Source: Nitrospira sp. BO4 (GTDB lineage: Bacteria; Nitrospirota; Nitrospiria; Nitrospirales; Nitrospiraceae). From it: DNA of 64,000 bases. A program made the position numbers and the translations under genes. The stretch covers positions 1 through 64,000 of the forward strand of contig JAMPUU010000025.1 of the NCBI GenBank assembly GCA_030144965.1. Direction: 5' to 3'. Below the pieces are notes generated by a model. That model did no database searches. It was not told where the DNA came from and saw nothing but the letters and a program-made list of their open reading frames with translations. The first letter of the stretch is position 1. Each line of letters starts with the position of its first letter. Positions 6,840 to 62,813 of the stretch are shown here, in pieces.

Positions 6840-8183
6840 TCAGCGCTCCTCGCCGGAATTGAGTGTGTCGCTTACTCCCGGATTAGCTGAAGGCAACTCA
6901 ACCTGCGTTGAGCTGTCAGCGTTGGATCGCGGGGATGCACTCGTGAGCACATCGTGCAACAGTTCGGCCGTGACGTCTTTTGACAGACAATGGGAAGCCC
7001 CCGCGTCCATCATGGCCTGAATGGTGTGCGTGACATGATTGACGGAGAGTCCCACGACGACGGTGGTCGGGCGGAAGGCTAAGATTTGTTGTGTGGCTTG
7101 AATCCCATCCATCCCCGGCATATTGATGTCCATGAGCACGACATCCGGCTTTAAGTCGCTAGCCATCTCCACGGCTTCGCGCCCGTTCCCGGCCTCACCG
7201 ACGATACAAATATCTGGGCACCCGTCTAAGATGGCCCGCAAACCTTGACGAACCAGCGCATGATCCTCAGCGAGAAGCACGCTGCGTACGCCGGTTGCCG
7301 TCCTGGTTGGTGTCACGCGCGGCTCGACGCCTGCCGGCGCACAGGCGACCCGGGTGTGTGGCGTGGAGTCGAGGGGTTCTTTCAGTGGTAATCCAAGTGT
7401 AATGGTCGTCCCCCGGCCAACCGCGCTGTCCACGGTCAGCCATCCGCCCATGGCGTCCATCCGTTCGTTCACGCTCAGCATGCCGAAGTGTTCATCCGCT
7501 GCCGTCCCCGGCGGTGCGCCCAGCTCGAAGCCGCAACCGCGGTCTTGCACGGTGATCCGCAGATGATCGCCCCCCTCGATCATGAGGGATACCGTGGCCT
7601 GGGACGTTTTGGCGTGCTTCCCGACGTTGATCAACAGCTCGCGAATCGACTGAAAGAGAAGGATGGCTTGATCTTCCGGCAAGGCCACCGTCTGTTGCGA
7701 GCACTGCACCTCGACCGTCAGATTGTGCGAGTGCATTTGTCCCGCCAGCCACTTGAGCGCCGCCGGCAACCCCAAATCATGCAGCACCGAGGGACTCAGT
7801 TCCGCCATCAGCGTGCGGGTATAGTCCAGCGCCTTGCTCAAGATGTCGTCGAGGTCGTGGATCACCGGCGCCTTGAGAAGATCGGCTGGCAGCATGTGGC
7901 GGCGCGCGTGTCCAATTTTCATCCGTCCCAAGACGAGCATTTGGGCGAGATAGTCGTGGAGCTCCGCAGCCAGCCGCTTCCGTTCTCGCTGCTCGGAGAC
8001 GGTCAATTGGGAAGCCAGCTCGCGCAACGCGCTCTGCTTGATCAGCAAGATGCTGTTTTGAACCTGATAGCGTTGCGCCAACTCCTCGGCGCGTTCCTCG
8101 GCCTGGAGCGCCGTAATTGTGAGGTGCTCGTTCGCGTCGCGCAGGCGATCGCTTGCCACCATCTGTGTGTCCTCGCTCGTCAT
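6840..8183 (-). CDS. Hybrid histidine kinase (HisKA_3 type) with C-terminal receiver
   Basis: This 447-aa soluble protein has an N-terminal coiled coil (20-75) and a NarX/DegS-type dimerisation domain with phospho-acceptor His76 in ELHD. It also has an HATPase_c domain (N-box around 182-191, G1 box DRGCGF 214-219) and a NarL-type receiver with acidic pair E306-D307, Asp352 and Lys402. There is no transmembrane segment and no output HTH. The start overlaps the stop of the KaiC-like gene by 4 bases (ATGA), so they are translationally coupled. The likely role is cytoplasmic signalling downstream of the KaiC-like ATPase; the input signal is unknown. Confidence 0.9.
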   Translation of the reverse strand: MTSEDTQMVASDRLRDANEHLTITALQAEERAEELAQRYQVQNSILLIKQSALRELASQLTVSEQRERKRLAAELHDYLAQMLVLGRMKIGHARRHMLPADLLKAPVIHDLDDILSKALDYTRTLMAELSPSVLHDLGLPAALKWLAGQMHSHNLTVEVQCSQQTVALPEDQAILLFQSIRELLINVGKHAKTSQATVSLMIEGGDHLRITVQDRGCGFELGAPPGTAADEHFGMLSVNERMDAMGGWLTVDSAVGRGTTITLGLPLKEPLDSTPHTRVACAPAGVEPRVTPTRTATGVRSVLLAEDHALVRQGLRAILDGCPDICIVGEAGNGREAVEMASDLKPDVVLMDINMPGMDGIQATQQILAFRPTTVVVGLSVNHVTHTIQAMMDAGASHCLSKDVTAELLHDVLTSASPRSNADSSTQVELPSANPGVSDTLNSGEER

Positions 8184-9709
8184 GGGGTTCCCTCCGTGGG
8201 CTCAGGTCGCTGGGGATCGGCAGGGACCAACCGCCTGGGTGTGCCAGTCATCAGTCCTTCATAATCCCTGAGTCCTGTCCCAACTGTTAGGCCCTGCGTT
8301 GTAATGTCGTACAACCTGAGTTCCTTGCTGTGCTGGCTCCCGCGCAGCTTTACCACGGTCATAAGCCGCTTTAATTGGCCGTCCAACTCGACATAGCGTT
8401 GGAGAATAATGCCGTCGGTGAGAAAGGCTGTGCCATGGGGGCTGAACCGGAGATCAATGTAGGAGTCCACAACTTCCACCGTCAAGAACAACGTGATGCC
8501 CATGGCTGTGAGCATCGCAACCATCCGGTGGAGCGTTTCACGGAAGTCCTCGCGAAAGGCCGGTGCGAGCGCCAGCTCCAGACCGGAGAGAGAGTCAATC
8601 ACTACCCGTTTCACTCCATGGGCCACGACCACCGTCCGCACTGCTTCCAGAGTTTCGTCGAGCGACAGGTCCAAAGGACGGAGGTACATGACATGGAGCA
8701 AGCCGTCCTCGAGATGCTGAGCGATTTTCATGCCGAGCGGGTTTGTCTTCAGATAGTCAGAAGGGCGCTTCTCGAATACTGCAAGGAGTCCGGGCTGACC
8801 CTGCGTGACGCCGTCGAGAAGAAATTGCACTGAGAGGATCGTTTTGCCGGAACCCGATGGACCCGCGACCAGCAGGGAGGAGCCGGCCGGGATGCCGCCG
8901 TCCATCATGCCGTCGAGCCCCAGCACACCAGTCGACAACCGCTCGACCGGCTTGGAAGAGAATTTGATTTTCTGCCGTTCCAACGCGCTGATTTCCTCCG
9001 GAATCGGCAGCCGAGGGAACACCTGAACGCCTTTTCCGGTGATGCGAAACGTTTGTAAGCCTGGAAGCGGGGCTTGGCCGCGCATCTTGACGACTTGGAG
9101 TTTGCGCACGATCGAACTCCGCTGAATACTCTGGGAGAGCCACAGGATGCCGTCGGCCACGGTAAAGATGGGATTGTCTTCCTTCTCGGAGTCCTGGTAT
9201 TCGCCGACAAGAAAGGTCGTCGCCTGCCAACTCGTGAGCTGTAACGCAAGGCGCTGCACAAAGGCTTGGAGGGTCAATTCGCCGCTCTCTTCCGGACCCT
9301 GTGAGGCTCGGATTACCGAGCGGAACGAATCCACGATCACCAGACTCGGATTCGTGGCTTCGACCTCCGCCACGATCCGCTCCAACACCTTACCGAGTCC
9401 GGCTTCCAAAACCTCGTGCGCAATCGACACGAAGCGGATGCAGGAATTGACCTTACCGGCATCGAAGAACGCAAATTGTTGCTGGTAGCGCAGGAGTTTG
9501 AGTGGAGGCTCGCCGAGGACCGTCACATATAAGGCCGGACGTTGGGGAGTGGCGAGGGAAAACGCGATTTGGTGGACCAAGGTCGTTTTGCCGGCGCCGG
9601 GTCCCCCCGCCAGCAGATTAAAGGAATACTCGGGCAACCCGCCTCCCAGGACTTCGTTGAGCCCGGGAACGCCGGTATCGAGTTGGACGATGGACACCTT
9701 TTCGGTCAT
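8180..9709 (-). CDS. KaiC-like tandem RecA-type ATPase
   Basis: This 509-aa protein has two KaiC domains. The first has Walker A GGPGAGKTT (35-43) and a Walker B-like VIVDS near 125. The second has GPSGSGKT (283-290) and VIDS near 375. In true KaiC a Glu-Glu pair follows the first strand. Here the corresponding sites read VLGEPP and FEKRP, so each keeps only one Glu, and activity may differ from clock KaiC. No KaiA or KaiB gene is visible. It overlaps both neighbours by 4 bases. Such proteins in non-cyanobacteria usually serve signalling, not a proven clock. Confidence 0.9.
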   Translation of the reverse strand: MTEKVSIVQLDTGVPGLNEVLGGGLPEYSFNLLAGGPGAGKTTLVHQIAFSLATPQRPALYVTVLGEPPLKLLRYQQQFAFFDAGKVNSCIRFVSIAHEVLEAGLGKVLERIVAEVEATNPSLVIVDSFRSVIRASQGPEESGELTLQAFVQRLALQLTSWQATTFLVGEYQDSEKEDNPIFTVADGILWLSQSIQRSSIVRKLQVVKMRGQAPLPGLQTFRITGKGVQVFPRLPIPEEISALERQKIKFSSKPVERLSTGVLGLDGMMDGGIPAGSSLLVAGPSGSGKTILSVQFLLDGVTQGQPGLLAVFEKRPSDYLKTNPLGMKIAQHLEDGLLHVMYLRPLDLSLDETLEAVRTVVVAHGVKRVVIDSLSGLELALAPAFREDFRETLHRMVAMLTAMGITLFLTVEVVDSYIDLRFSPHGTAFLTDGIILQRYVELDGQLKRLMTVVKLRGSQHSKELRLYDITTQGLTVGTGLRDYEGLMTGTPRRLVPADPQRPEPTEGTP

Positions 9710-14132: not shown

Positions 14133-14381
14133 GTGACACCTCCCCATCAAAATGCGAAATGCCCTCATCGTAAACTATTCCCTGTTAATTCCCTGTTTCT
14201 TCCAATGCGTGGTATCCTGAGGGAAACCGTCAACAGGCGCGTGGATAGGCCGTTCCCTAGAACACGTGGTGGGAAGAATCCCGCTAACCCCATCAAACTC
14301 GCTGGAGCAGCGGCTGACGCGGCTATCGGTCAACCGCGCACACCAAAGCGTAAGGCTGCTAAGAAGAAGGGTCGGCGTTGA
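14133..14381 (+). CDS. Small basic hypothetical protein
   Basis: This 82-aa frame has a strongly basic C-terminus (RTPKRKAAKKKGRR), suggesting nucleic-acid binding, and an Ala/Pro-rich middle. An ATG at residue 25 is an alternative start, since no ribosome site is evident before the first ATG. No family is recognised. The first third may be non-coding. Confidence 0.35.
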   Translation: MTPPHQNAKCPHRKLFPVNSLFLPMRGILRETVNRRVDRPFPRTRGGKNPANPIKLAGAAADAAIGQPRTPKRKAAKKKGRR

Positions 14382-18975: not shown

Positions 18976-19181
18976 CTGTTCGTCTCCCAGCCGTAAGGTG
19001 GTCGTGGCTCATGCTGTAAAATGCAGGCCGCAGAGACGGCGGTCAGATACAGAGGCCGCCGACATGCTGCGTTGATGTGAAACCCTGTATTAGGGTAAGG
19101 GTCGCGGGATGGAAGGTATACTAGCAGTTGTCCGAGTTTCTGCAAGCTTATCCTGCGTTGCTGCTTGATTCGCGTCGAGAA

Positions 19182-19300
19182 AAAAGAAAGCTCCGTCCTC
19201 TTTCAAGAACGGAGCTTACCGAACAGCGCAATGTTTCCATCGTGTCTTCGATAGCGTTTCCATTACCGGTTCACAATGTTTCCACTGTGCTGTTCGATTG
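19182..19300 (-). ncRNA. Candidate structured RNA with three GAAA hairpins and terminator (copy 1)
   Basis: On the minus strand a 7-bp stem GAACAGC/GCTGTTC (19295-19289 with 19227-19221) encloses three hairpins, each capped by GAAA. They are CACAGTG-GAAA-CATTGTG, CGGTAATG-GAAA-CGCTATCG with one mismatch, and CGATG-GAAA-CATTG. Right after it, AGCTCCGTTCTT...GAGGACGGAGCT followed by TTTCTTTTTT is a textbook Rho-independent terminator. A related copy is at 56283-56395. It lies between the stop of the gene at 19368 and the acyltransferase, so it is either a 3' UTR or a separate small RNA. Two hairpins present ATGGA, the core of CsrA/RsmA sites. Confidence 0.5.
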
Positions 19301-19367
19301 TGATGTTATGGTGGACATCTCCCCAGCCGGTACTCGGAAAATCCCCAAGCTCACGCTCTGAGCAAGC

Positions 19368-19640
19368 CTAAGAAAAGCTTAGTGCGTGTTCGACTTCCTG
19401 AGAATCAATAGGCGAGTCATGGGTGCCCTCGATCATCTGATGGTAGGAGGAGGACTGAACCCAGTAAGTCCTGTCTGCATCCAAGCGTATACGAACTTGC
19501 CCAGTCCGGCTCAGGTAATCAATGGCGAGGAAAAGCTGGTTCCATGTGATCTCCGGACAGAGGTTCATGACCTCTTCCAAGGGGCACTCTGTACCCAATT
19601 GTTCTAAGGCTGTGTGGATTCGCTCAATCAGGATGGGCAT
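19368..19640 (-). CDS. Small hypothetical protein, possible winged helix
   Basis: The 90-aa product has helix-turn features (IHTALEQLGTECPLEEVMNL, WNQLFLAIDYLSRTGQVRI), then a short beta wing (LDADRTYWVQS), suggesting a winged-helix fold. No family name is known to me. The stop is followed after about 70 bases by the structured RNA and terminator on the same strand, which would end this transcript. Confidence 0.6.
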   Translation of the reverse strand: MPILIERIHTALEQLGTECPLEEVMNLCPEITWNQLFLAIDYLSRTGQVRIRLDADRTYWVQSSSYHQMIEGTHDSPIDSQEVEHALSFS

Positions 19641-19961
19641 ACATCACCTCCGCTGGCGTTGAGGTCGACGCTCCATTAAGCAGCGCAGTGGTTCTACCCT
19701 AGAGAGCAATCCACATACACTAGGGGACGCCCCAGGGTACAGAGCACCGTCGTAGCGACGCGTTGCGATGCTCCTGCGGCGGGAAAAGCTATTCTCAAGA
19801 GCTAATCGCAACGGGAGACGGGTTTACGAAATCAACGTGCCGGAATCCACCAAAGCACCGTAGTTCTTAGTGCTCTTCCTAGTGGTTCGTGCTCTGCGTT
19901 CGTGACAATAAAAGCGGATTCGCGCTCTGACGAACCACGACACGGAAGGCATGGGGCTCGT
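19641..19961. other. Intergenic, divergent promoter region
   Basis: About 320 bases separate two divergent genes, so promoters for both probably lie here. A hexamer pair could not be chosen with confidence. No coding frame is seen. Confidence 0.35.
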
Positions 19962-20357
19962 ATGGAGAAGGCAGTGAAGGAAGAAAAAGCGATACAGATT
20001 TTAGTCGTCGACGATCATGCCCTCGTCCGGCAGGAAATTCGCTCAATATTGGAAGGGTACCCAGACCTCGAGGTCGTGGGAGAAGCGCGTAATGGCCTCG
20101 AAGCGATCTTCTTGGTGGAAAAACTCCGTCCACGCGTCGTCCTCATGGACATCAACATGCCGAAAATGAATGGCATTGAGGCCACGGCCCAAATCAGGAA
20201 GGGCTATCCGGACACCATAGTCATTGGGTTTTCAGTGAATACGACCACGGACAATCATGAGGCCATGAAACAAGCCGGTGCCGTTCAGCTTGTCGCGAAG
20301 GATGCGGCGGTCGAAGAGCTGTATGAAGCCATTCGCGAGGCGGTGACGAATCGTTAA
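19962..20357 (+). CDS. Stand-alone response-regulator receiver (NarL-type)
   Basis: The 131-aa protein is a complete receiver: acidic pair in VVDDHALVRQE, phospho-acceptor Asp in LMDINMPKMNG, and Lys in LVAKDA. The sequence resembles NarL/FixJ receivers but there is no DNA-binding domain. It would act by protein-protein contact, like CheY or Spo0F. The start at 19962 follows GGAAGG; a GTG at 19902 is in frame. No kinase is adjacent. The hybrid kinase at 6840 is the only histidine kinase in the window. Confidence 0.88.
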   Translation: MEKAVKEEKAIQILVVDDHALVRQEIRSILEGYPDLEVVGEARNGLEAIFLVEKLRPRVVLMDINMPKMNGIEATAQIRKGYPDTIVIGFSVNTTTDNHEAMKQAGAVQLVAKDAAVEELYEAIREAVTNR

Positions 20358-25528: not shown

Positions 25529-25669
25529 CATACGGTCAAGTCCATCTCCTCGCCCTCATTCACATTAGCGCCTAGTCATTTTCCTAGTACGACGCTCGAT
25601 CAAGGTCCATTAGTCTGGGGCTCCTTAGGGACAGGTCGATGGAACGAACGGGGGAAAGGAGCGTCAATC

Positions 25670-25855
25670 ATGACGACAACGGTTAAATACTGTTCGAGAT
25701 GTGCTGGTCTGCTCTCGCTGTTAAGCCCCCGGAACGAAAATGAGATACGGTTTTACTGGGCTGGCGTTCGCCAGATTCGTCCAGCCATCCATAAGGGCCA
25801 GTGCGAGAAATGTGGGCGGACCGAAAGTCTGACCTATTATCGGTTTCCCGGCTGA
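25670..25855 (+). CDS. SP-D zinc-ribbon small protein
   Basis: The 61-aa protein reads VKYCSRCAGLLSLL, then EIRFYWAGVRQIRP and GQCEKCGRTESLTYYRFPG. Two CxxC sites and the YYRFPG ending define this subgroup, shared with 50198, 50424, 42929 and 53013. The next gene starts 15 bases downstream. Confidence 0.72.
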   Translation: MTTTVKYCSRCAGLLSLLSPRNENEIRFYWAGVRQIRPAIHKGQCEKCGRTESLTYYRFPG

Positions 25856-38150: not shown

Positions 38151-39110
38151 ATCGACATCTAGAGCATAGACCTTGTGAGCAGGAGGACCTACTGGGTAAA
38201 TGCCCTGCGACACGGGCTCTGGGTCACGCCGTGGACCACAGTATCAACCCCTTGACGTTCTGGATTCTGCCAATGCCGGAGGGAGAGTTCTGTAAACATG
38301 GAACCGACAGGGAGCATGGGGCAACCGCCTGCGTGCCTCCTCGACGTTACCCTGTCCCAACCCGTGCGTGATTCGCTCCCGTTCCCGCGAGATCTCCGTG
38401 CCGATCCCTACTCGCACCTTCGCGAGCCCTTGGTTGATGGCCTGCTAAAGAAAGGGTCAAGCGGAGGGTGACGTGAATATATGGCCGTTAACATGGAAAG
38501 ACTCCCGTGCCTGCCGGAGATCTGCGCCGGCGTCGGAGAGCACCACGACTTGCTGGTTTTGTTGCATTCTTGGGACTTCATCAGCTTTCAGAAACACTGA
38601 CGGAGCTGCGGATCGTAGGCTGGTCAAACGCAATGCAATAGGAGGGACCATACCCGCTTTCCAGCGTCACAACGCCACTACACTGGCGCCCGTTATCACA
38701 ATGCAATCGGCCAGCGCGTTCATCTCTTTGCCCAAAGAGTGCTCGATTGATGCGTTGGGCTATGCCATCGAACAGACCGTGTGATACGAAAGCCTACGGT
38801 GCACCCCTGATCCACCCACAGCCCGGTAGTTATCTCGAACACTTCCTCCCCACCTAAGACCTACCGTTTGATAGTCTCATCGTTCCGTTTCGCAGCGGCT
38901 GCTCAAAGGATCTGCCAGGTATGAAAGCAGGTCGGACGCACAGGTTTTCAGAAGCCTATCGAAACGCGCGGCAAGGTACAAGGTCGATGTTTAAGAAATC
39001 GCGAATTTCTGATGTTTCACTTAGGGGGTTGCCTAGGTATAAAAGGTAGGTAAGAGGAATAATACTATTCCATCAAATGGACGTTAGACTTTTAACCAAG
39101 GAGTGACTCA
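38151..39110. other. Intergenic, no supported gene
   Basis: Nearly 1 kb has only weak frames on either strand. AT-rich sequence around 39040-39095 and an AAGGAG at 39097 belong to the PepSY gene's upstream region. Otherwise nothing is recognised. Confidence 0.35.
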
Positions 39111-39395
39111 ATGAAAAAGATTAGTTTGTTGGCTGGAATGCTGCTGTTGCTCGCTGGGACGGTGATGCCGGCCTGGGCCCTCTTCGAAAGTGATCGAGAG
39201 CTGAGTAACAAATCCACCGTGAGCATGATCGACGCGATTAAAACCGCGGAGCAGGCCCGCCCTGGCAAAACAGTTGAAGCGAATATTGGGAAAGACGATG
39301 GTCGTGTGGTCTACAAGATTGAGATCGTAGAGGGGAAATCTACCTACAAAGTCTATGTGGACGCCGTGACAGGAAAGGTCCACGAAATTAAGTAA
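39111..39395 (+). CDS. PepSY-domain exported protein
   Basis: The 94-aa protein has a signal peptide (KKISLLAGMLLLLAG, cleaved near AWA). It also has a PepSY domain: SMIDAIKTAEQARPGKTVEA, VVYKIEIVEGKSTYKVYVDA, VTGKV. PepSY domains are thought to inhibit peptidases or bind ligands at the cell surface. AAGGAG lies 9 bases before the ATG. It is not overlapped by other genes, and the upstream promoter region is AT-rich. Confidence 0.85.
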   Translation: MKKISLLAGMLLLLAGTVMPAWALFESDRELSNKSTVSMIDAIKTAEQARPGKTVEANIGKDDGRVVYKIEIVEGKSTYKVYVDAVTGKVHEIK

Positions 39396-49899: not shown

Positions 49900-50112
49900 G
49901 AGACAGTTCTTTGTACGAGAACCGAGGATAAATAAATCGACAGCTAGGTGTCTTTGCCGTTCTTGGGCATGGTAGACAACCGCGATATGCGGCTCAAACT
50001 TCGTGTCGCGAAATGGCGTCAGACGAGATCCTGAAGATCTTCGCGTTGAGAAAGTTAGGATTGGATTGAGCAGCGGCTTACCCTCATATGTCCTAGTAAT
50101 CGTCCTAGGCAT
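49900..50112 (-). pseudogene. DUF72 internal scrap
   Basis: The minus strand reads RTYEGKPLLNP, then after a frame change text like FLNAKIFRIS, then LTPFRDTKFEPHIAVVYHAQ. These correspond to the YNGKPLF, FLDAKLFRDLVLTPFQEAKF and adjoining parts of the DUF72 remnant at 43245, with a deletion between. It is a fragment only. Confidence 0.5.
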
Positions 50113-50197
50113 TGTCCTAGTACCACTTTCTACCCAGTCCTAGATAATCGACCATCCAGAAGCAATCAAAGCAATTGACTCCCAAGAAAGCGCAATC

Positions 50198-55734: not shown

Positions 55735-56226
55735 TTAAGGCCTTGTGATAATCCAGATCGCTACGTCTTGCGCATCACGCAGTAGATGGTCAGTGATACC
55801 GCCGCCGAAGATTCGCGTGATTCCAGTCGTGCCCGTGCGGCCCACGACGATCGTGTCGTGATGTCCCTTTCTCGTTTCTTCGAGAATAGTAGTCGCAATG
55901 TCGTCCTCATGTCCAAACTTCAGGGCGACTCGGCTCTTGTCAAAGCCGGCACGGATCAATGTCTCGCAGGCTCGCTCGAGAATAGGGCATTCTGCCTCTT
56001 TTTCCTGCCTCAACCACGCCTCCCGTTCTTCCCTCAAACGATCGCTCAGCACTTCTTCCATGTGGGGATTTTCAGATCCGCCATGCTCCAATAAGCCGCG
56101 TGGTATGGGTTTAAGCACATGAAAGAGCGTAACGATGACATCTGGCGTCTGCCGCAGAAGCGACCCCACATATCGCACGGCATGCAACGCGTTTTCGGAT
56201 TCATCCACTGCCACAAGGATCCGCAT
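55735..56226 (-). CDS. Universal stress protein, UspA family
   Basis: The 163-aa cytoplasmic protein starts RILVAVDESENALHAVRYVG and ends with GRTGTTGITRIFGGGITDHL. The latter matches the ATP-binding G-x2-G-x9-G-S/T motif of Usp proteins. It binds ATP and is induced under stress or growth arrest in other bacteria. It stands alone; the RNA element copy 2 lies just upstream. Confidence 0.9.
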   Translation of the reverse strand: MRILVAVDESENALHAVRYVGSLLRQTPDVIVTLFHVLKPIPRGLLEHGGSENPHMEEVLSDRLREEREAWLRQEKEAECPILERACETLIRAGFDKSRVALKFGHEDDIATTILEETRKGHHDTIVVGRTGTTGITRIFGGGITDHLLRDAQDVAIWIITRP

Positions 56227-56282
56227 ATGTGACTCCGTGGTAAAGGGACGTGAGGTCTACAATTGTTAACGCCAAAAAGAAA

Positions 56283-56395
56283 GCTCCGTCCTGTTTCAGG
56301 AACGGAGCCCTCCACGAACAGCGCAATTTTTACATCATGTCCTCGATAGCGTTTCCGTTACCGGTTCGTAATGTTTCCACTGCTCTGTTCTTCTG
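56283..56395 (-). ncRNA. Candidate structured RNA (copy 2, partly degraded)
   Basis: On the minus strand GAACAG (56390-56385) and CTGTTC (56321-56316) enclose hairpins with CAGTG-GAAA-CATT and CGGTAACG-GAAA-CGCTATCG. In the second hairpin a T-G pair of copy 1 is C-G here. The third hairpin (GATGTAAAAATTG) has lost its GAAA. GGCTCCGTTCCTG...CAGGACGGAGC then TTTCTTTTT is the terminator. It may be a transcript of its own or a decaying duplicate. Confidence 0.4.
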
Positions 56396-56460
56396 TCATG
56401 CTATCATCTTCTTGTCTCGGCCGGTACTGGGAAACTCCCTAACATTCCGACCAAGGCATG

Positions 56461-57115: not shown

Positions 57116-57260
57116 CGTTCCTGCGGCGGAACAGAGGCTCGCCCAAGATCGACGAGCGGTCAGAATTCTTCGACTTGTGGTGCACGCATACAGCTTGAAC
57201 TGTTGCCATCTGGTCGATTGTTGGCAGTCACGCCAAAAAGACAGCTCCGTCCTGTTTCAA

Positions 57261-60690: not shown

Positions 60691-61593
60691 ATGGCGAACA
60701 GAGCAGCCGGCATCGGGTTCGTCGGAATAGGCCGCATGGGCGCCAACATGGCGCGCCGACTTCACGAACGTGATTTCCGTCTGACCTCGGTCTACGACCT
60801 ACAACCAGCGGTTGCATTGTCACTAGCCGCTGAGCTCAAGATCCATGCTGCGCAGACTCCGGCTGAGGTAGCCGGCAGTTCCACCGTCATTATCACAGTC
60901 ATCTCCGACGATGCGGCAATGCGTTCAATCTTCTCTGAGCACAATGAAGCCAGCCTTCTTGGGAAAGCCCGAGACCGGCTCTTCATCAACTGCGCGACCC
61001 TTTCCCCAGGCGTTCACCGAGATATTGAACGGTTGGTCACGGCACAGGGTGGGACATGCCTGGAAGCGTGCATGGCGGGGAGCATCACCCAAGCTCGACA
61101 AGGCACACTGTACCTGATGTGCGGCGGCAACCCCGAGGTCTTTGCCAATGCGAAGGTCATCCTGGAAGCGCTCGGAACCACTGTGCGATATATCGGCCAG
61201 GCCGGCGAGGCGGCAAAAGTGAAAGCACTCGTAAACATGGTGATGAACAGTAATACGGCCGCGCTGGCGGAAGGGTTGGGACTGGGAGCGGCGCTTGGAA
61301 TCGACCTCACGCTACTGCGCGAAGTCTTCGGCCAAACGGGCGCGGCCTCCCGTGTGCTGGAAACCGACGGAGAAGATATGCAGCAACGCGCGCACGAATG
61401 TTATTTCTCCGCCGCCCATGCCGCAAAAGATTCGACCATCGCGCTCGACCTGGCTCACCGTGCCGGACTCTCTCTGCCGGTCGCCCATGCAACACTGAGC
61501 CAATACCGTCGCTTGATTGAATTGGGGAAAGGTGAGTTAGATAAATCTGCAGTGGCCGAATTGACGTTTCTCGACCGTGAAGGGCTGCGCTAG
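60691..61593 (+). CDS. 3-hydroxyisobutyrate dehydrogenase-family NAD(P) oxidoreductase
   Basis: The 300-aa enzyme has an N-terminal Rossmann motif GFVGIGRMGANMARRL (residues 9-24). The catalytic Lys176 lies in GQAGEAAKVKALVNMVMN, and a helical C-terminal domain follows. The substrate loop reads EACMAGSITQAR instead of the usual DAPVSGG, so the substrate may differ from glyoxylate reductase or tartronate semialdehyde reductase. AAAGGAACC precedes the ATG. It is likely cotranscribed with the upstream lipoprotein gene. Confidence 0.9.
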   Translation: MANRAAGIGFVGIGRMGANMARRLHERDFRLTSVYDLQPAVALSLAAELKIHAAQTPAEVAGSSTVIITVISDDAAMRSIFSEHNEASLLGKARDRLFINCATLSPGVHRDIERLVTAQGGTCLEACMAGSITQARQGTLYLMCGGNPEVFANAKVILEALGTTVRYIGQAGEAAKVKALVNMVMNSNTAALAEGLGLGAALGIDLTLLREVFGQTGAASRVLETDGEDMQQRAHECYFSAAHAAKDSTIALDLAHRAGLSLPVAHATLSQYRRLIELGKGELDKSAVAELTFLDREGLR

Positions 61594-62624: not shown

Positions 62625-62722
62625 TCGACAGGGTGAAAAAGGCAAACCACCCGAGAGGGTGGGACGCAAAGCCGAGGGACCTTAACAGGGACGGAACATG
62701 TTCCAGGGTCAGCCTAGCTGCC
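62625..62722 (+). promoter_or_regulatory. Cyclic di-GMP-I (GEMM) riboswitch
   Basis: GGCAAACCACCCGAGAGGGT followed by GGGACGCAAAGCC reproduces the GEMM-I core. It has the first helix with a GNRA (GAGA) tetraloop, the conserved GGCAAACC and GGGACGCAAAGCC joining strands, then the second helix GGGACCTTAACAGGGACGG...AGGGTC. It lies about 90 bases upstream of the flagellar rod-type gene on the same strand. It probably turns that gene on or off with c-di-GMP level. The expression platform was not identified. Confidence 0.88.
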
Positions 62723-62813
62723 ACACAATCGACGACCTGACCAGTCTGGACCTCCCTCCCATTCACCCGGTACCTTCCTCTGAATTACAGTCCCAACCGA
62801 TCGGAGGTGCCGC

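Follow-up and report, generated by a model that had tools for sequence, protein, structure and literature searches.

In streptococci, the csRNAs are several related small RNA (sRNA) genes per genome that belong to the regulon of one response regulator, CiaR, and in Listeria all five copies of LhrC depend on one stress two-component system, LisR (PMC4132741). The RNA family found here in the genus Nitrospira is like the csRNAs in having several related copies in one regulon (PMC3091779); however, csRNAs pair with mRNAs, whereas no seed is evident in the Nitrospira RNA and its regulator is putative, and no sequence or structural relation between the two was seen. LhrC carries redundant CU-rich motifs, whereas the Nitrospira RNA is a rod with A/G-rich loops. 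CsrB, RsmY and RsmZ are likewise structured RNAs under activator control (putative here) with GGA in loops and a terminator, but they display many hairpins, in contrast to a single rod with about two GGA that are not strictly conserved and a conserved GNRA tip. No Rfam 15 family matched at its gathering score, and no Csr/Rsm RNA was among the sub-threshold matches; the best of these, to the PyrG leader, the PyrR site and Ref55, were far below their cut-offs, chance-like, and were discarded. This RNA is described in none of the open-access papers found by a search. The molecule itself is new to Rfam 15 and to the papers searched; as a kind it resembles the regulon-controlled multicopy sRNAs. 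Bacteria of the genus Nitrospira drive nitrite oxidation and complete nitrification. A 2022 review gives three annotated sRNAs for Nitrospirae (PMC9029176).

The analysed stretch of 64,000 nt from Nitrospira sp. BO4 (hereafter the window) contains two copies of the RNA (Table 1), and a search of the whole genome revealed nine substantial copies, while the same-species genome G091 has 14-15. The family thus described comprises up to about 15 related copies per genome, each consisting of a long rod and a terminator, and in this it agrees with other multicopy sRNAs. A further terminator-like fragment in the window is probably a remnant. The closing stem GAACAGC/GCTGTTC, the three GAAA motifs and the strong terminator reported in the initial annotation are all present on the minus strand, as is the related copy placed there near 56283-56395, to which the covariance model assigns slightly different limits. 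The structured RNA lies where it had been located, but its extent had been drawn too short, since the element reaches further upstream, with the promoter extending to about 19347. The covariance model R1, built from seven copies, retrieved 62 matches.

The predicted folding energy of copy 1 is -56 kcal/mol versus -31±3.4 in shuffled sequences (z -7.35), and among nine copies z ranged from -5.6 to -8.7. In eight of the nine folds P1, made up of the closing stem and GCAGU/AUUGC, is followed by a symmetric A/G-rich internal loop (GAAA/GAAA in copy 1) and then by P2; a second, asymmetric loop separates P2 from the GAAA-capped P3, and the gap between rod and terminator is 2-6 nt. Covariation was evaluated against shuffled and slid controls in a cleaned set of 44 distinct sequences; the shortened copy L008 was left out of the seed, because the first alignment (A1) had misaligned it. 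Rod and terminator are paired in 89.6% of cells, the terminator helix (helix 4) in 96.8%, and 29 of the 42 pairs changed on both sides. Two-sided changes occupy 169 cells, versus 63.5±7.3 in shuffled and 24-48 in slid controls, in an alignment fitted to the structure, which favours structure in such counts; this concern is minor given the size of the excess and the recovery by RNAalifold, on the same alignment, of P1, P2 and the terminator for the most part and of P3 in part. The seven-copy alignment alone gave no significant covariation, which appears in the wider set. On the modelled strand 225 G-U pairs were counted versus 39 A-C mismatches, which favours an RNA of this strand. Antisense open frames cross the element at 13 loci; they vary in length and frame, conflict with the RNA-type covariation and were rejected as candidates.

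Sequence comparison supports a fold of one long rod plus terminator and not the three GAAA-looped hairpins initially proposed. Eight of the nine copies fold, at minimum energy, into a single rod; there the two outer motifs (GGAAA on one side, UAAA in most cases on the other) lie opposite one another across the symmetric internal loop, so that only the middle GAAA caps a hairpin. In the alignment the two outer hairpins are paired in 81% and 67% of cells and covary no more than shuffles do, whereas pairing reaches 93% and 97% in the competing helices of the rod, which do covary; the three-hairpin fold was ruled out on these grounds. The T-G to C-G change noticed between the copies is real and lies in the apical stem, at pair two counted from the loop; this pair is C-G in 31 copies and U-G in 5. 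Of the earlier interpretation, what holds is that this is an independent structured sRNA which ends in a terminator of its own, has related copies and shows covariation, the covariance-model search of related genomes having found both covariation and conservation elsewhere.

Table 1. Features of the RNA genes, their promoters and neighbouring genes in the window
Feature	Position	Strand	Basis or remark
RNA copy 1, rod and terminator	19181-19296	minus	covariance model match, 129.4 bits (R1, whose building set contains copy 1), 121.6 bits (R2)
Rod of copy 1	19220-19296	minus	minimum-energy folds and covariation over 44 distinct sequences
P1	19283-19296 with 19220-19233	minus	
P2	19272-19278 with 19238-19244	minus	
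P3	19261-19268 with 19249-19256	minus	
Apical GAAA (GNRA) loop	19257-19260	minus	
Intrinsic terminator	19181-19217	minus	sequence; stem 19205-19217 with 19188-19200, U-rich tail 19181-19187
-10-like TAACAT	19303-19308	minus	22 nt after the operator-like element
Operator-like element TGGGGATTTTCCGAGTA	19331-19347	minus	upstream of copy 1, centred near -42
Response-regulator receiver gene	19902-20357	plus	divergent neighbour, about 600 nt upstream of copy 1
RNA copy 2, rod and terminator	56274-56391	minus	covariance model match, 111.7 bits (seed member of R1)
Promoter of copy 2, TAGGGAGTTTCCCAGTA - 21 nt - TAGCAT	56398-56441	minus	zero mismatches
Universal stress protein (Usp) gene	55735-56226	minus	neighbour, not part of the RNA; 47 nt downstream of the copy 2 terminator
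26-nt fragment like part of the terminator	57235-57260	minus	E 0.0015
Same promoter layout	25573-25616	plus	ahead of 25670-25852 (plus), 61 aa, zinc-ribbon-like (Pfam match below the curated cut-off)
Operator-like TAGGCATTGTCCTAGTA	50106-50122	plus	ahead of a similar small protein gene
Operator-like TAGGGGGTTGCCTAGGT	39022-39038	plus	ahead of a PepSY-domain gene (frame 39111-39395)

Upstream of the RNA genes there is a conserved block, TTAGGGGATTTTCCCAGTACCGG ... GATAGCATGA. The 17-nt element TAGGGNNTTNCCNAGTA, scored as present when at least 9 of 13 positions agreed, was found in 45 of 52 upstream regions (sister genera included), and in 43 of these 45 it is followed 20-22 nt downstream, nearly always 21 or 22, by TANNNT. 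Most copies have a promoter of their own of the form TAGGGNNTTNCCNAGTA - 21/22 nt - TANNNT, which places the start at the rod, the latter beginning 27-36 nt (usually 32-36 nt) after the element. A start about 7 nt after the -10 box would hit the rod base, and the transcript would therefore consist almost only of rod and terminator, with almost no single-stranded leader. The element shows partial dyad symmetry, as TAGG-N6-CCTA in many of the copies ahead of protein genes, and the operator of the RNA genes (TAGGGG..) is slightly unlike those of the protein genes (TATGNC..). The element is centred near -42, which is the usual place for a class II activator. The putative activator would bind TAGGGNNTTNCCNAGTA and recruit RNA polymerase at the -10 box 21-22 nt downstream; transcription would start approximately at the rod's first base and end at the terminator. 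The predicted product, of about 116 nt in copy 1, would have hardly any unstructured part: its rod would contain a symmetric, purine-rich internal loop and be capped at the tip by GNRA.

Protein genes of stress type are preceded by the same layout. The combination of operator, N21 and -10 box has 22 matches in the window's own genome versus 5 for a reversed-pattern control, the operator pattern being derived partly from the genome in which it was counted. Two of the 22 are RNA copies, and the other 20 precede an open frame starting within about 370 nt, many with a Shine-Dalgarno-like site before the frame. The examined downstream genes carry the Pfam names hemerythrin, YtxH, DUF4142, polyketide-cyclase/SRPBCC, FtsH-like, PRC-barrel and receiver-only response regulator. 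Over 79 genomes, 91 matches versus 24 in the control were counted in the 14 RNA-bearing genomes, a number that includes some RNA genes and is dominated by two genomes of one species, whereas the other 65 genomes gave 43 versus 44, which is background (Mann-Whitney p 3e-6, phylogeny being ignored). On sequence evidence the RNA genes and the protein genes share a common promoter, and control by a shared stress activator is likely. Weaker operator-like matches, maybe due to chance, occur in the window at 14246-14262 (plus) and 60956-60972 (minus).

The window also encodes, at 6840-9709 (minus), a HisKA_3 histidine kinase fused to a receiver, adjoining a KaiC-like ATPase. Kinases of the HisKA_3 type often partner NarL/LuxR-type regulators, and this kinase is therefore a candidate link to the activator of the regulon. 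A c-di-GMP-I-GGC riboswitch (Rfam RF03167, 68 bits) lies at 62632-62726 (plus).

Within the genus Nitrospira, the RNA was found in 14 of 79 genomes at E<=0.01, and a wider model found it in 18 at E<=0.1, some of them marginal; being patchy, it is therefore not essential there. Beyond the genus, strong single-copy matches came from further genera of the same family and, in one case, from a different family of that order. The single copies of sister genera carry the same operator, and in four sister-genus genomes the RNA follows an hflX-type GTPase gene. Weak covariance-model matches across the phylum (E 1e-4 to 1e-6) are probably terminator-like and were not counted. Two genomes of the same species share seven loci at 98-99.9% identity, and extra diverged copies lie inside duplicated stress-gene segments, so that the RNA seems to have spread with segment duplication and not by transposition.

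Several observations concern the surroundings of the copies. In the near-complete same-species genome, eleven RNA copies, nine of them on one strand, are located within about 480 kb (G091 C1:4.06-4.54 Mb), a region that looks rich in stress genes and repeatedly duplicated, and in another genome two copies of opposite orientation are about 270 nt apart (G061 C9:11513-12015, locus L085). Genes of a small secreted protein family (..GDLVKAYVTDQGHTTTLQR..), with no Pfam match above the cut-off, directly precede seven or more RNA copies and occur in the vicinity of others (L122:3656-3967, L120, L077, L079, L090, L106 and L008). In three Nitrospira genomes a protein of about 1270 aa with about ten HAMP domains is encoded divergently from one RNA copy (L121, L104 and L111); the one that was scanned, at L121, also contains a GAF domain.

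The placement of the copies relative to genes bears on whether the RNA is a gene in its own right. The nearest downstream gene is on the same strand in about 20 cases and on the opposite strand in about 27, and upstream genes also occur on either strand, the neighbours being called approximately, by a home-made codon-usage method. With no fixed strand in the flanking genes, the element is therefore an independent small RNA gene, and a fixed position or strand ahead of related genes, as in a cis-acting leader, was not found. A cis attenuator or riboswitch controlling, for example, the Usp gene, which is co-oriented with copy 2 and close behind it, was rejected on gene strand; moreover, the identity of the downstream gene varies, and the terminator is closed throughout and no competing pairing was seen, which makes this reading highly improbable. 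The possibility raised in the initial annotation that the region is just a terminator of the 19368 gene, here taken together with that gene's 3' tail, takes its appeal from a 90-aa frame (19368-19640, minus) that ends about 70 nt upstream of copy 1, but is hardly credible, as at other copies the upstream gene is another one or is divergent, and the RNA has its own promoter. Dispersal in several copies per genome would also suit a mobile repeat of the MITE or REP type devoid of RNA function; against this, the copies are 70-94% alike, diverged and syntenic instead of near-identical, the operator and -10 box keep a fixed spacing, covariation is of the RNA type with an excess of G-U, positions are conserved beside the hflX-type gene in sister genera and the HAMP-repeat/GAF gene in three Nitrospira genomes, and the expansion accompanies duplicated stress-gene segments, so that such an origin is very improbable. 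An IS21-like transposon end, an integron attC site and a MITE were dropped in view of the diverged copies, own promoters and G-U bias, with no flanking duplication noticed. It is concluded with high confidence that the element is an autonomous structured sRNA gene of Nitrospira.

As to what the RNA does, the initial annotation had suggested a CsrA/RsmA sponge. On the present fold, the GGA of the internal loop and the GGA of the tip would then bind a CsrA dimer, and stress-induced copies would free CsrA-repressed mRNAs. CsrA is encoded in the same genome (G000 C17:630704-630859, E 5e-24) and in 66 of the 79 genomes of the genus, Hfq was found in none of 39 Nitrospira genomes and ProQ was not found in the window's own genome, the only one searched for it, and multiple copies with an activator-type promoter resemble RsmX/Y/Z in logic. 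Of the 44 rods, 36 carry GGA in the internal loop, 35 at the tip and 30 in both places. However, the number of GGA per rod varies from 0 to 5, three rods have none, and ANGGA is present in just 21; CsrA prefers hexaloop ANGGAN sites in weak hairpins, and base-paired GGA weakens binding (PMC7652899), whereas the first G of the apical GGA belongs to a closing pair. A GNRA apical loop is seen in 43 of 44 rods (GAAA 35, GAGA 4, GCAA 2, GUGA 2), and the variants GAGA, GCAA and GUGA keep GNRA and lose GGA; this is the pattern expected if selection acts on a GNRA tetraloop and not on GGA. A sponge would moreover have only about two sites per RNA, the multiple GGA exposed in hairpin loops that characterise sponges were not found, the outer hairpins being unsupported and the tip GNRA, and it leaves unexplained the UAAA strand facing the GGA strand, which is about equally conserved. 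More than 50 CsrA-bearing genomes, the majority of those in the genus, lack the RNA. A CsrA sponge is possible but improbable, and is not supported as such. An Hfq-independent trans-acting sRNA that pairs with mRNAs of the same regulon through its loops, like csRNAs or LhrC, would agree with the multiple copies, the shared stress-type promoter and the terminator, such families being known; it is nevertheless unlikely, since no conserved unpaired stretch exceeds about 5 nt, a single-stranded leader is nearly lacking and the unpaired loops are A/G-rich, not anti-SD, though the GGA/GAAA loops could still pair with short targets.

Protein binding is the most likely mode of action because a sizeable conserved unpaired seed is lacking and Hfq and ProQ were not found, yet its chance of being the main mode is about even, and both the binding and the choice of protein are speculative. 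We infer that the RNA would work in trans: its purine internal loop and GNRA tip would bind a protein, or else a larger RNA-protein particle, with copy number setting the dosage. The RNA is probably a structured, likely protein-binding regulator, and the explanation as a whole, an autonomous sRNA gene of a stress-type regulon that probably binds protein, is slightly favoured. A bolder but fairly unlikely version sees in it a new class of RNA that titrates protein: a rod, induced by stress and amplified in dosage, that would use its purine internal loop and its GNRA tip to sequester the ribosome or a global regulator different from CsrA.

These results give a phylum with few recorded small RNAs a well-supported RNA family that had not been catalogued, with its promoter defined and a regulon proposed for it, together with covariance-model-ready sequences for annotation. 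The activator of the regulon and sRNA action free of Hfq thereby become directly testable. If the tentative reading as a protein-titrating rod is true, it would be chiefly through this RNA that sRNAs contribute to stress control in Nitrospira.
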